Source: Haloarcula marina (GTDB lineage Archaea; Halobacteriota; Halobacteria; Halobacteriales; Haloarculaceae). From it: 64,000 nucleotides of DNA. Of the stretch, positions 21,094 through 25,162 are shown piece by piece. The notes beneath the pieces were generated by a model, which was not told the origin of the DNA, searched no databases, and worked only from the letters and a program-made list of their open reading frames with translations. The first letter of the stretch is position 1. Every line of letters starts with the position of its first letter. The translations under genes and the position numbers were made by a program. The DNA lies in the NCBI RefSeq assembly GCF_024218775.1, contig NZ_CP100404.1, positions 2,666,001-2,730,000 on the forward strand, given 5' to 3'.

Positions 21094-21417
21094 TTAGTTG
21101 TACTCCCGCCAGCGGTGCCCACAGTCTTGGCACTTGAAGAAGCGCGTCGGCGGTTCGTCTGCCGAGCCCGTTTGCTTGATAGTGTACCACGCCTTCCCGT
21201 GGCCGCAGTCGTCGCAGGTCACGTCGTCGGCGGTGGGTTTTCCCTCGAAGTCCGCGCCCTCCTCCGTCTCGATGACGTCGTCGTCGCTCTGTTCGTCCGT
21301 CGTGACGAACGCGGCCGCTCTGTCGGCGTCCTTCGCGACGCGCGCGCCGCAGGACTGACACTCCATCTCGTCGCCGTCCGCGTGCATCATCGAACCGCAG
21401 TCGTCGCAAAACTGCAT
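21094..21417 (-). CDS. tfs: Transcription factor S (TFS/RPB9-like)
   Basis: The 107-residue protein has an N-terminal zinc ribbon (Cys4, Cys7, Cys20, Cys23) and a C-terminal TFIIS-type ribbon (CDDCGH...FFKCQDCGHRWREYN). The acidic pair in SADEPPTRFF reaches the polymerase active site to stimulate RNA cleavage. All the expected features for an RNA-cleavage factor of archaeal RNA polymerase are present. The ATG at 21417 is the obvious start because the longer frame overlaps the neighbouring gene. Confidence 0.92.
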   Translation of the reverse strand: MQFCDDCGSMMHADGDEMECQSCGARVAKDADRAAAFVTTDEQSDDDVIETEEGADFEGKPTADDVTCDDCGHGKAWYTIKQTGSADEPPTRFFKCQDCGHRWREYN

Positions 21418-21455: not shown

Positions 21456-22112
21456 TTACTCGGCGTTCCCGAGTTCGCGCTGTTCGGCGACGACCGGACA
21501 GTCCAGCAGTTTGACCGTCTCCACGTCGAGAAACTCCACGATTTCGGTGCCGTCCTTCGTGCAGTGGACATCGGGCGGTGCAGAGAAGTACTCGCACTGC
21601 TCGCAGTAGCGGTGTTTCGACACCTCGGCGTAGCGAGACTCGCCCTCCGAGTCGGTCGGCGCGTCCTCGTCGAGCGAGGCCCACACCTCGTCGGCGTCGA
21701 CGGACTCCACGTCGACGGACTCGAAGACGCTCTCGCCGCTCCCGCCGAACGGGTCGCCGCCGCGTTCTGCCATGCCGTCGAAGGGGTCCCGAGAGGAGGC
21801 ACGGGTAGGCGGCGAATCCGCGTCGGCCTCGTTCGTGTCGACCGGTAGGCCGAACTCGTCGGCGGTAGACGGCCCGGCCACCGACGCCGAGGTGCTTCCG
21901 GTCTCTGCGTCGGGACTGCCCCTCGGTGGCTCCGTCTGCGGGTCGCCAGCGTCCGGAGGGTCGGCGTCCGGAGGGTCAGCGTCCGATGGGGCATCGGCAG
22001 TCCCTCCGCTCTCGTCGTCCGTGTCGGGCGGCCCGCCGAGGGCCTCGAAGGGGTCGCCCTCCCGGTCGTCGACCCCGAGGTCCGCGAAGGGGTCGTCCTC
22101 GTCGTCAGTCAT
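21456..22112 (-). CDS. Acidic haloarchaeal protein with C-terminal Cys cluster
   Basis: The 218-residue product has a disordered, strongly acidic first two-thirds with repeated DPFxxLG/DPFGG-like motifs (DPFADLG, DPFEALG, DPFDGM, DPFGG) and a PPDAD repeat. A compact C-terminal part (HRYCEQCEYFSAPPDVHCTKDGTEI, then LLDCPVV) has four cysteines that may bind zinc. The repeated DPF motifs could be docking sites for a partner. Its start overlaps the end of the coiled-coil gene by eight bases, so the two are coupled. The family is not recognised. Confidence 0.75.
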   Translation of the reverse strand: MTDDEDDPFADLGVDDREGDPFEALGGPPDTDDESGGTADAPSDADPPDADPPDAGDPQTEPPRGSPDAETGSTSASVAGPSTADEFGLPVDTNEADADSPPTRASSRDPFDGMAERGGDPFGGSGESVFESVDVESVDADEVWASLDEDAPTDSEGESRYAEVSKHRYCEQCEYFSAPPDVHCTKDGTEIVEFLDVETVKLLDCPVVAEQRELGNAE

Positions 22113-23025
22113 TGCTCGGTCCGGCCTCCAGTTGGGCGGCGGTGACGAGGCGCGCCTTCTTCCGGAAGATGCCACCGTCGGGTCGCACGTCCGAGACGGT
22201 GCTGTTGCAGTGGGGACACTGCGGTTCCGTCAGCAGGCCGATGTCGACCGACTCGCCGCAGTTCTGGCACGAGGCCGTCGAGATGCCTTCCTGTGCGGCC
22301 GCGCGTTTGATTCGGTCGACGGCTTTCTGCTGTGCGTCCCGGCCGCCCTGACTGTCCCGGAGGTCGCTGACGACCCACGCGACGCGGGTCAGTTTCTCTT
22401 CGATGTCCGCCAAGCGACGTTCCACGTCTTCGGCACGGGCCGCCACGTCGTCGATGCGCGTTCCCTGCTCGTCGAGGTCGGCTTCGAGCGCGTCGCCGAG
22501 GGCGTCGAGGTCCCGCTCTAACGCGGCGGTCATCGACTCCAACTCGTCGACCGTCGCGAACTCGTCGTGGTCGTGGTCCGCGGCGGCCTTCTCGTCGAGT
22601 TCGCGTTTGAGTTGGATGACGCGCTCGCGAACGTCGGCTATCTTCCCCTGAAACTCCGCGTCGAGCGCCTCGAACCGGTCGTCGAGGCGGCCCTCGACAG
22701 CGTCCGTGATGTGGGGCAAGCGGTCGCCGACGGTCGAGTCCACCGACTCGTCCAGTCGGTTCGCGACCACCTCGTCCACCGTCGCAGCGACCGACGCTTC
22801 GATTTGGTCCTGTATCGCGTCGCCTGTGGCCGCGTCCACGTCGACGAGCGCCGACAGGGACGCCGCTTCGTCCATCTCGACCGTCGTTCGGTACGCTGCC
22901 AGCAACTGCCGAATCACCACCTCGCGGGGGGCGTCGAGCGACGCCGCGTGCTCGTTTAGCCACTCGTCGAGTTCCGGCGGCAATTCGACGGTGACCGCCC
23001 CCTCCTCCGCCGACTCACTGGCCAT
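22105..23025 (-). CDS. Ribbon-helix-helix-like, coiled-coil, zinc-finger protein
   Basis: The 306-residue protein starts with a CopG-like segment (VTVELPPELDEWLNEHAASLDAPREVVIRQLL). A long coiled coil covers about residues 50-225 (ERVIQLKRELDEKA, LERDLDALGDALEADLDEQG). A zinc ribbon follows (CQNCGESVDIGLLTEPQCPHC), with a basic end. This layout suggests a DNA-binding or scaffolding protein that forms long oligomers. It is coupled by overlap to the acidic Cys-cluster protein. Function unknown. Confidence 0.8.
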   Translation of the reverse strand: MASESAEEGAVTVELPPELDEWLNEHAASLDAPREVVIRQLLAAYRTTVEMDEAASLSALVDVDAATGDAIQDQIEASVAATVDEVVANRLDESVDSTVGDRLPHITDAVEGRLDDRFEALDAEFQGKIADVRERVIQLKRELDEKAAADHDHDEFATVDELESMTAALERDLDALGDALEADLDEQGTRIDDVAARAEDVERRLADIEEKLTRVAWVVSDLRDSQGGRDAQQKAVDRIKRAAAQEGISTASCQNCGESVDIGLLTEPQCPHCNSTVSDVRPDGGIFRKKARLVTAAQLEAGPSND

Positions 23026-23118: not shown

Positions 23119-23955
23119 TCAGCGAATCTTGCGAACGTCGCTGATGTCGAACCCGGCGTCCCCGATTTCCGTCTCGAACTGGACGATGTTCTCCTCCTCG
23201 ATTTGCGAGAGGACGCCGCGGAACTGCTTGACGACGAGCGTCCGCGCACGCGTCGACCCCCCGGACTCCCACGAGAACTCCATCGTCCCGTGGGCCGCCT
23301 CGCTCAGTTGGCCCTGGCGCGTGTCCGACAGCGTCTCGTGGTTGAGGTGTAAGAGGATGAGGCCCCCCCACTGGTGGGCCGCCTTCTGGATGCCCGAGAC
23401 GAGGAAGGAGAGGTCCGCCCAGTCGATGTCTTCGCCCATCGCGCTGACGAGGTCCGACAGCGAGTCGATGACGACGAGGTTGCCCGGGGCGACCCGACTG
23501 AGTTTCGACCCCAAGGCCCCCAGCAAGCCGTCGCGTTCGTGGCGCGCTCGCAGGTCCTTGATGTTGGGCGTCTGCTCGGCGTACCACGACCGGGGGACCG
23601 GACTCATGTGGAAGTACCGCTCGGACATGTCGTGGAACTCGACGCCGTCGAGGCCCGCTTCCAGCAGTTCCGCGTCCATCGCCAGTCGCATCTCGTCGGC
23701 CAGTTGGTCCTCGCTGGCGGTGAAGGAGACGTAGTGGACCTCCTCCGGGGCGACGGCGTCGGCCGACGGCGTCCCGTAGTAGAGGTCGTACAGTTCCTCG
23801 TCGGTATCGGTGAGGCCGTTGATGACCGCGCTCGTGTGCATGAACTCGCGCGCCCCCGCCCCCGATTCGCCGGAGAGCAAGACGACGCTACCGGACGGCG
23901 CGCCACCGTTGACGATGGCATCGAGTTGCTTCACGCCGAACGGGATACGCTCCAT
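23119..23955 (-). CDS. RecA-fold (RAD55/KaiC-like) protein with degenerate Walker A
   Basis: The 278-residue protein has the layout of archaeal RAD55/HTR-like ATPases: PFGVKQLDAIVNGGAPSGSVVLLSGE at the N-terminus and a Walker B strand (NLVVIDSLSDLVSAM). The P-loop reads GESGAGAR at residues 29-36, so the invariant Lys and Ser/Thr of GxxxxGK[ST] are replaced by Ala35 and Arg36. It may bind nucleotide weakly or act as a non-catalytic subunit. A GCGTTTAAGCG element sits 27 bases upstream. It precedes the coiled-coil gene on the same strand. Confidence 0.85.
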   Translation of the reverse strand: MERIPFGVKQLDAIVNGGAPSGSVVLLSGESGAGAREFMHTSAVINGLTDTDEELYDLYYGTPSADAVAPEEVHYVSFTASEDQLADEMRLAMDAELLEAGLDGVEFHDMSERYFHMSPVPRSWYAEQTPNIKDLRARHERDGLLGALGSKLSRVAPGNLVVIDSLSDLVSAMGEDIDWADLSFLVSGIQKAAHQWGGLILLHLNHETLSDTRQGQLSEAAHGTMEFSWESGGSTRARTLVVKQFRGVLSQIEEENIVQFETEIGDAGFDISDVRKIR

Positions 23956-24196: not shown

Positions 24197-25162
24197 CTAT
24201 TCGTCGAGCGACGCGCCGACGTTTCGCGGGGCGACCACTGACACCTCGCCGTCGACGCCAGCGGCCTCCAGCGCCGCCTCGCCAGCCTTTCGAGCGGCGT
24301 CCATCCCGTCGGTATCGGTCAGTCCCCACACCGTCGGTCCCCACGAGGACTGGCCCGCGCCCGTCACGGCCGGTGCGTCGGTGAGTCGTTCCACGAGGGC
24401 CCCCGCGGGCGGGCGGTAGACGCCGCCCTGCTCGTCGGCGTACCACGCCCCGTTCAACCGGCCGAGGCGGGCCGCCGCCGCCCCGAACGCCCGTCGGTCG
24501 CGGTTCGCGACGGCCGGGAGGAGACGGCGGGTGAGCAGGGTCGATATCTCGTCGCCGATACCCGGGTCGGCCCGTTCGACGGCTTGGCGCATGCTCTGGT
24601 CCTCCGCCCTCCCGCTCTGCCCGGGGTCCGTATCGGGCACGACGAGGAGGAACCGCCAGTGAGCGGGCACGTCGTGGTGAGCGATGACGGGCGGTACTTC
24701 CCAGTCGCCCTCGGCGGGCGGTTTCGCGGTGAAGCGCTCCGTCGGATGACCGCCGTCGACGACGAACCCGCCGTGTTCGAACGTCGCGACGCCGACGCCG
24801 CTTCGGCCGCCGCGCCCCAGTCGCGGGGCGAACGTCCGCGCGTCGGCCGTCGTGTCGTGGGCGCGGGCGACGGCGACGAGGGACGCCAGGGCCAGTTGGG
24901 TCCCGCTCCCGAGACCGACGTGGCGGGGGAACCGCTCTCGAATCTCGACCCTCGCGCCGGGCACGTCGAGGGCGTCGACGGCGCGGCGGACGTACGGTTC
25001 GGCGGCGGGGTCGGGGCACTCGACGGCGTCGGCGGGGTCGGCACTGACGACGAGTCGCGGTTCGTCGAGTGCGAGACCGACGCCGCCGTACAAGCGGTCG
25101 TGTGCGAGCGCGAGGTTCTGGAAGCCGAAGTGAAGCCGCGCGGCGGTCGTGACCGTCGCCAT
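24197..25162 (-). CDS. Beta-ribofuranosylaminobenzene 5'-phosphate synthase-type protein (GHMP fold)
   Basis: The 321-residue protein matches the RFAP synthase family. It starts VTTAARLHFGFQNL, has the glycine-rich motif HVGLGSGTQLALA, the GRGGRSGVG segment, and the late GAGQSSWGPTVWG motif. In methanogens the enzyme joins phosphoribosyl diphosphate to 4-aminobenzoate or 4-hydroxybenzoate, the first committed step of tetrahydromethanopterin synthesis. Haloarchaea are not methanogens, so the product here is an open point. It stands alone on the minus strand. Confidence 0.87.
   Translation of the reverse strand: MATVTTAARLHFGFQNLALAHDRLYGGVGLALDEPRLVVSADPADAVECPDPAAEPYVRRAVDALDVPGARVEIRERFPRHVGLGSGTQLALASLVAVARAHDTTADARTFAPRLGRGGRSGVGVATFEHGGFVVDGGHPTERFTAKPPAEGDWEVPPVIAHHDVPAHWRFLLVVPDTDPGQSGRAEDQSMRQAVERADPGIGDEISTLLTRRLLPAVANRDRRAFGAAAARLGRLNGAWYADEQGGVYRPPAGALVERLTDAPAVTGAGQSSWGPTVWGLTDTDGMDAARKAGEAALEAAGVDGEVSVVAPRNVGASLDE

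Follow-up and report, generated by a model that had tools for sequence, protein, structure and literature searches.

We analysed a 64,000-nucleotide stretch of the Haloarcula marina genome (contig NZ_CP100404.1, positions 2,666,001 to 2,730,000; hereafter the window) and found that three adjoining genes in it, named here P3, P1 and P2, are kept and lost across haloarchaea together with pilB3, pilC3 and the gene for a P-loop KaiC protein, KaiC2. The adhesion pili of Haloferax are assembled by PilB3–PilC3 (PMC6491452, PMC7771232). We propose, with a probability of roughly two in three, that P3–P1–P2 is a cytoplasmic accessory or control unit of the PilB3–PilC3 type IV adhesion pilus; the link to the pilus comes from comparative genomics, and the mechanism outlined below is one that we infer.

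Co-occurrence with PilB3, PilC3 and KaiC2

Genome-wide presence was scored in 145 genomes drawn from the class. The PilB3_C domain was matched at E≤5.6e-14 in 122 of them, with weaker or no matches in the other 23, and a protein search with PilC3 split the genomes identically. For PilC3, coding was by E-value and identity, six split matches (40–47% identical in the pieces shown) counting as present; 23 genomes, whose match was weak or missing, were coded as lacking PilC3, and among the weak matches the identity could be read in just a part. P3 was found in 121 genomes, P1 in 123, P2 in 122 and KaiC2 in 121. P3 and PilB3_C (E≤1e-13) occurred together in 120 genomes, P3 alone in one, PilB3_C alone in two and neither in 22 (Fisher P=1e-22). 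The corresponding counts were 120, 1, 1 and 23 for P3 and KaiC2 (P=2e-24), and for KaiC2 and PilB3–PilC3 there were 121 genomes with both, one with PilB3–PilC3 only, none with KaiC2 only and 23 with neither (P=8e-26). The same agreement was seen at short range, as within four genera in which pilB3–pilC3 is variable P3 agreed in 11/12, 5/5, 2/2 and 2/2 genomes.

Taking P3, P1, P2, pilB3, pilC3 and KaiC2 together, all six were present in 119 genomes and none in 20, leaving six mixed cases. The sole genome with PilB3–PilC3 yet without KaiC2 (G066) has a divergent P3 beside its P2 and P1 on another contig, and was coded as P3-absent at E≤1e-40. Another (G121), whose P2 match lies at a contig end, was coded without P1 and P3 and has KaiC2 and PilB3–PilC3. 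G119 has only a truncated P1 and G014 only a P1-like protein; G021 and G144 are weighed below.

Linkage to pilus genes in methanogens

Full-length homologues of P3 occur outside the class in 53 of the 90 matching genomes, and we examined 19 of those 53, all of them methanogen loci. In every one the P3 homologue is followed by a KaiC2 with an intact P-loop; 18 pairs were scored as adjacent and in the same direction, and in the last (L086) KaiC2 follows P3 too, an N-terminal extension having pushed the matched part past the 250-nucleotide limit. PilB-like and PilC-like genes lie head to head with the P3–KaiC2 pair in 16 of the 19 loci. Their products are 46–52% and 30–36% identical to haloarchaeal PilB3 and PilC3 respectively, and the one methanogen-locus PilB scanned contains PF23989 (PilB3_C). 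Because an apparently dead KaiC adjoins an active KaiC beside a PilB gene, a heteromeric regulator of the PilB ATPase is suggested.

A BLAST search (1e-5) of open reading frames selected from the methanogen loci detected no relative of P1 or P2. Since a haloarchaeon (G021) also has P3, KaiC2 and PilB3–PilC3 without either protein, P1 and P2 seem to have been added in haloarchaea.

Organization, conservation and loss of the cassette

All of the features listed below lie on the minus strand of the window, and are given in its own numbering.

23119–23955, minus: P3, 278 residues, KaiC/ArlH fold; upstream of P1
23842–23871, minus: degenerate P-loop of P3, residues 29–38, GExGAGxREF, lysine replaced
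22105–23025, minus: P1, 306 residues, ribbon-helix-helix (RHH)-like head, long coiled coil and C-terminal zinc ribbon
22888–22995, minus: RHH_1 match (PF01402) of P1, residues 11–46
22348–22746, minus: predicted long helices/coiled coil of P1, residues 94–226, including the best-conserved stretch DVRERVxQxKxExDxKA
22192–22278, minus: zinc-ribbon-like CxxC...CPHC of P1, residues 250–278
22105–22112, minus: 8-nucleotide overlap of the P1 stop and P2 start, ATGACTGA
21456–22112, minus: P2, 218 residues, acidic, with four DPF motifs and a C-terminal Cys4 domain
21498–21605, minus: Cys4 domain of P2, Cys170, Cys173, Cys184 and Cys205
21094–21417, minus: transcription factor S (TFS), conserved neighbour downstream; TIGR01384 at 75.3 bits, cut-off 64.75
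24197–25162, minus: GHMP/beta-RFAP-synthase-like gene, a frequent neighbour of P3 on the upstream side

A reading made from the letters of the window alone (the sequence-only reading) had described a coupled pair of genes overlapping by eight bases, both with cysteine clusters and perhaps acting together with a RecA-like neighbour, and had staked the idea on co-occurrence outside this genome. The overlap and both clusters are there, and the coupling survived: the P1–P2 pair is conserved across haloarchaea, being adjacent in 118 of the 119 genomes with listed places, and P3 adjoins P1 in 104 of 118. P1, P2 and P3 are all present in 120 of the 145 genomes, all missing in 20 and partially present in five. 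Two P1 matches (G025 and G091; E 1.4e-6 and 6.3e-7) were scored as present for co-occurrence and were left out of the adjacency counts.

At the 19 named loci retrieved by searching with P3, P1 adjoins P3 in every case and P2 is present in 18, the contig ending in the other (L022). TFS accompanies all 19, upstream on the opposite strand in L022 and farther off in L016. The −8 spacing between P1 and P2 recurs in 10 of the 18 loci with both genes, and also in L016 once its P2 start is corrected.

The P3–P1–P2 module behaves like a cassette whose genes disappear together, since P1 and P2 stay paired at loci from which P3 has been relocated, TFS directly adjoins the GHMP gene in several module-less genomes and G119 retains a truncated P1 between these two genes. 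At these loci P1–P2 usually keep TFS, and the relocated P3 lies beside a GHMP-kinase gene in several genomes; TFS is likewise retained where the module is gone.

P3 resembles KaiC and ArlH without the P-loop lysine

PF06745 matched P3 at 29.1 bits, above the gathering cut-off of 26.6, with the best stretch confined to residues 5–34, and the ArlH model NF052589 gave 42.4 bits (E 6.6e-11), well below its curated cut-off of 215. The structural model of P3 agreed with a KaiC-like fold: Foldseek returned KaiC at E 3e-12 and FlaH/ArlH at 2e-11, and VIA gave Z 19.9 for KaiC (root mean square deviation 3.2, 226 residues aligned) and Z 19.3 for FlaH 4yds (3.3, 223 aligned). The position of the P-loop lysine is not lysine in any of 15 aligned P3 proteins and a GK[ST] P-loop occurs in none of 40 haloarchaeal P3 entries, whereas KaiC2 has an intact GxxGxGK[ST], the motif expected for nucleotide hydrolysis. 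P3 may be a catalytically dead KaiC acting beside a P-loop KaiC2.

The window's genome encodes another P3-like protein in which the P-loop lysine is missing (L102:5950-6852, plus strand, about G000:C1:1028.8-1029.7 kb), next to genes that by eye are PEP-synthase-like and decarboxylase-like. A second match is also present in G016, of the same genus, and among the matches listed these two are the only haloarchaeal genomes with one (E 1e-32 and 2e-29). The KaiC2 of the window's genome (L106:1498-2583, minus strand) carries at its N terminus a long acidic tail in which SPFGD-like motifs are repeated; the KaiC2 tails of ten other haloarchaea are likewise acidic, most with a DWFE(R/S)A-like start.

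P1 combines a variable head with a conserved coiled coil and zinc ribbon

The CopG-like head, coiled coil and zinc ribbon that the sequence-only reading had assigned to P1 are all found in the window's protein. PF01402 (RHH_1) scored 22.6 bits, above its cut-off of 20.5, and the AlphaFold2 model has a strand at residues 10–14, helices at 17–30 and 34–90, long helices at 94–148 and 155–226 and a β-rich C-terminal end surrounding the CxxC/CPHC cysteine residues. The model superposed on CopG (1ea4) at 1.8 Å over 38 columns, yet with an E-value of 5.3, and the fold search gave no match with E≤0.001. In the family at large the head did not hold up: RHH_1 was found at E≤0.01 in just 3 of 30 relatives, and the P1 of at least two (L037 and L062) lacks it. 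Conservation lies instead in the coiled coil and in the zinc ribbon, where Cys253, Cys256, Cys270 and Cys273 are invariant across 15 and across 30 aligned relatives. P1 is probably a dimeric coiled coil.

P1 could also be a transcriptional regulator whose RHH head binds DNA and sets pilin or pilus gene expression, with P3 and KaiC2 feeding in the signal and TFS being a related partner. The RHH_1 score of the window's P1 and the position of TFS after P2 in many loci, even where P3 has been relocated, are in keeping with this, but the rarity of the head among relatives and the concentration of conservation in the coiled coil and zinc ribbon make it unlikely. Since the head varies, DNA binding is unlikely to be a shared function of the P1 family.

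A relationship of P1 to ArlC (FlaC) is not claimed, because PF05377 matched 5 of the 30 members (best E 1.2e-4) and other coiled-coil families were equally frequent. Divergent P1-like paralogues with a coiled coil and zinc ribbon occur outside the module in L058 and L060 and as second matches in G026, G040, G078, G112, G129 and others.

P2 carries a conserved Cys4 domain and family-specific DPF repeats

No model in Pfam or NCBIfam matched P2 at E≤1. Its Cys170, Cys173, Cys184 and Cys205 are invariant in 13 aligned proteins, and all 41 P2 entries (two of them the window's own) have four or five cysteine residues. The sequence-only reading had counted at least four DPF motifs and taken them as possible docking signals. 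The count was right, with motifs at residues 7, 20, 109 and 120, a number reached in 0 of 20,000 shuffles (mean 0.14), and 13 relatives together contain 42, where shuffles average 1.8. Other P2 families mostly have 0–1 per protein, so a universal docking motif was rejected and the repeats are largely family-specific. Two further candidates were dropped: a motif that by eye seemed to be shared by P2 and the acidic KaiC2 tail, for which a profile built from nine tail motifs gave 2 of 40 P2 proteins a score of at least 4, against 0.76 per shuffled set, and none a score of at least 6, and PF pairs in the KaiC2 tails (12 where 6.2 were expected, P=0.018), an excess driven by two genomes.

Weighing the link to the pilus

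Several observations count against a role in the pilus. P3–P1–P2 was physically linked to pil genes in no haloarchaeon seen, and TFS is a steadier neighbour of P1–P2 than any pilus gene. One mixed genome (G021) has P3, KaiC2 and PilB3–PilC3 without P1 or P2, and another (G144) keeps P3, P1 and P2 without a strong PilB3, PilC3 or KaiC2. The PilB3 cut was chosen after the gap between 5.6e-14 and 5.1e-11 was visible, the Fisher tests treat genomes as independent and ignore phylogeny, and most absences are concentrated in one family (f3). The P3 model has a mean predicted local distance difference test score (pLDDT) of only 66. G144 could be an intermediate of loss or represent a second use of the module.

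The clustering of losses in that family, together with the three separate places occupied in the window's genome (pilB3–pilC3 at about 1.59 Mb of G000:C1, KaiC2 at 2.79 Mb and the module at 2.69 Mb), would fit an indirect co-loss, in which module and pilus are separate functions dispensed with by the same lineages and have no physical or regulatory contact. A purely phylogenetic artefact is argued against by the joint switches inside four genera and by the linkage of P3–KaiC2 to PilB/PilC in methanogens, which are no substitute for a tree-aware test. ArlH and CheA also behave differently from the module: P3 and ArlH were both present in 102 genomes, P3 alone in 19, ArlH alone in 11 and neither in 13 (P=1.5e-4), and for P3 and CheA P was 0.25. 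We therefore consider indirect co-loss quite improbable.

The DNA-associated or cytoskeletal system envisaged by the sequence-only reading, in which P1 would be a scaffold for the chromosome or for cell shape, would suit an RHH plus coiled-coil architecture and the weak coiled-coil score of an archaeal SMC-related model (25.6 bits; its cut-off is 300); the cassette is dispensable in 20 of the 145 genomes and tied to pilus genes, and we give this reading very little credence. An archaellum or taxis accessory, suggested by the NF052589 match and by the weak positive association with ArlH (without tree correction), was rejected as the main partnership and is the least credible of all, since 19 module genomes lack ArlH, 11 ArlH genomes lack P3 and a separate ArlH is encoded at another place in the window's genome.

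Proposed role

FlaH/ArlH interacts directly with the archaellum ATPase and is essential to motor assembly (PMC4858521), and a reference title in that paper indicates that the interaction is nucleotide-dependent. By analogy, P3 and KaiC2 may work on PilB3 much as ArlH does on the archaellum ATPase. P3 would pair with the P-loop KaiC2 in a mixed ring or dimer, and this pair would dock on the PilB3 hexamer in a nucleotide-dependent manner, as ArlH on ArlI. P2, pictured as a small domain that binds metal together with a flexible, acidic tail, would form with P1 a haloarchaea-specific adaptor that reads or sets the state of P3–KaiC2 and so switches pilus assembly. It is a more tentative idea, to which we give slightly less than even odds, that adhesion pili have a dedicated cytoplasmic switch comparable with the ArlH layer, a heteromer of dead and P-loop KaiC under PilB3, joined in haloarchaea to P1 and P2, which would control the timing of pilus construction.

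PMC4858521 describes the regulation of pilus assembly as poorly known, and it is for the most part not understood how archaea switch their adhesion pili on and off; the present link names four candidate proteins, P3, P1, P2 and KaiC2. Scans of haloarchaeal gene neighbourhoods would miss it, since the genes occupy separate places in the window's genome.

Comparison with known systems

A KaiC–pilus link in methanogens is already published: Makarova et al. 2016 (PMC4858521) place the KaiC-like ATPases arCOG01172/arCOG01173 in type IV pilus operons of Methanomicrobia, and the methanogen P3–KaiC2 pair probably belongs there, an arCOG membership that we infer. Excerpts of that paper make no mention of the haloarchaeal P3–P1–P2 cassette, of the replaced lysine or of a joint loss with PilB3, and a full-text open-access search found no prior report of these and no Haloferax locus tags for P1–P3; Makarova et al. 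2017 on KaiC-like hubs lay outside the search and may describe them.

For P1, the predicted head of the window's protein resembles CopG/RHH repressors, but its relatives have a weak or absent head and it adds a long coiled coil and zinc ribbon. HP0958, which takes part in Helicobacter flagellum formation and combines a coiled coil with a Zn ribbon (cited in PMC4858521), shares the architecture and the tie to a surface appendage by analogy only; no sequence or fold match to P1 was found among the matches listed (25 of 30 families in the family search). P3 has a close counterpart in ArlH (FlaH), the KaiC-like protein that works with the archaellum ATPase ArlI; with ArlH it has the fold in common and presumably a role beside a pilus-type ATPase. 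P3 nevertheless differs from ArlH in scoring far under the ArlH cut-off, in lacking the P-loop lysine and in tracking PilB3 rather than the archaellum.
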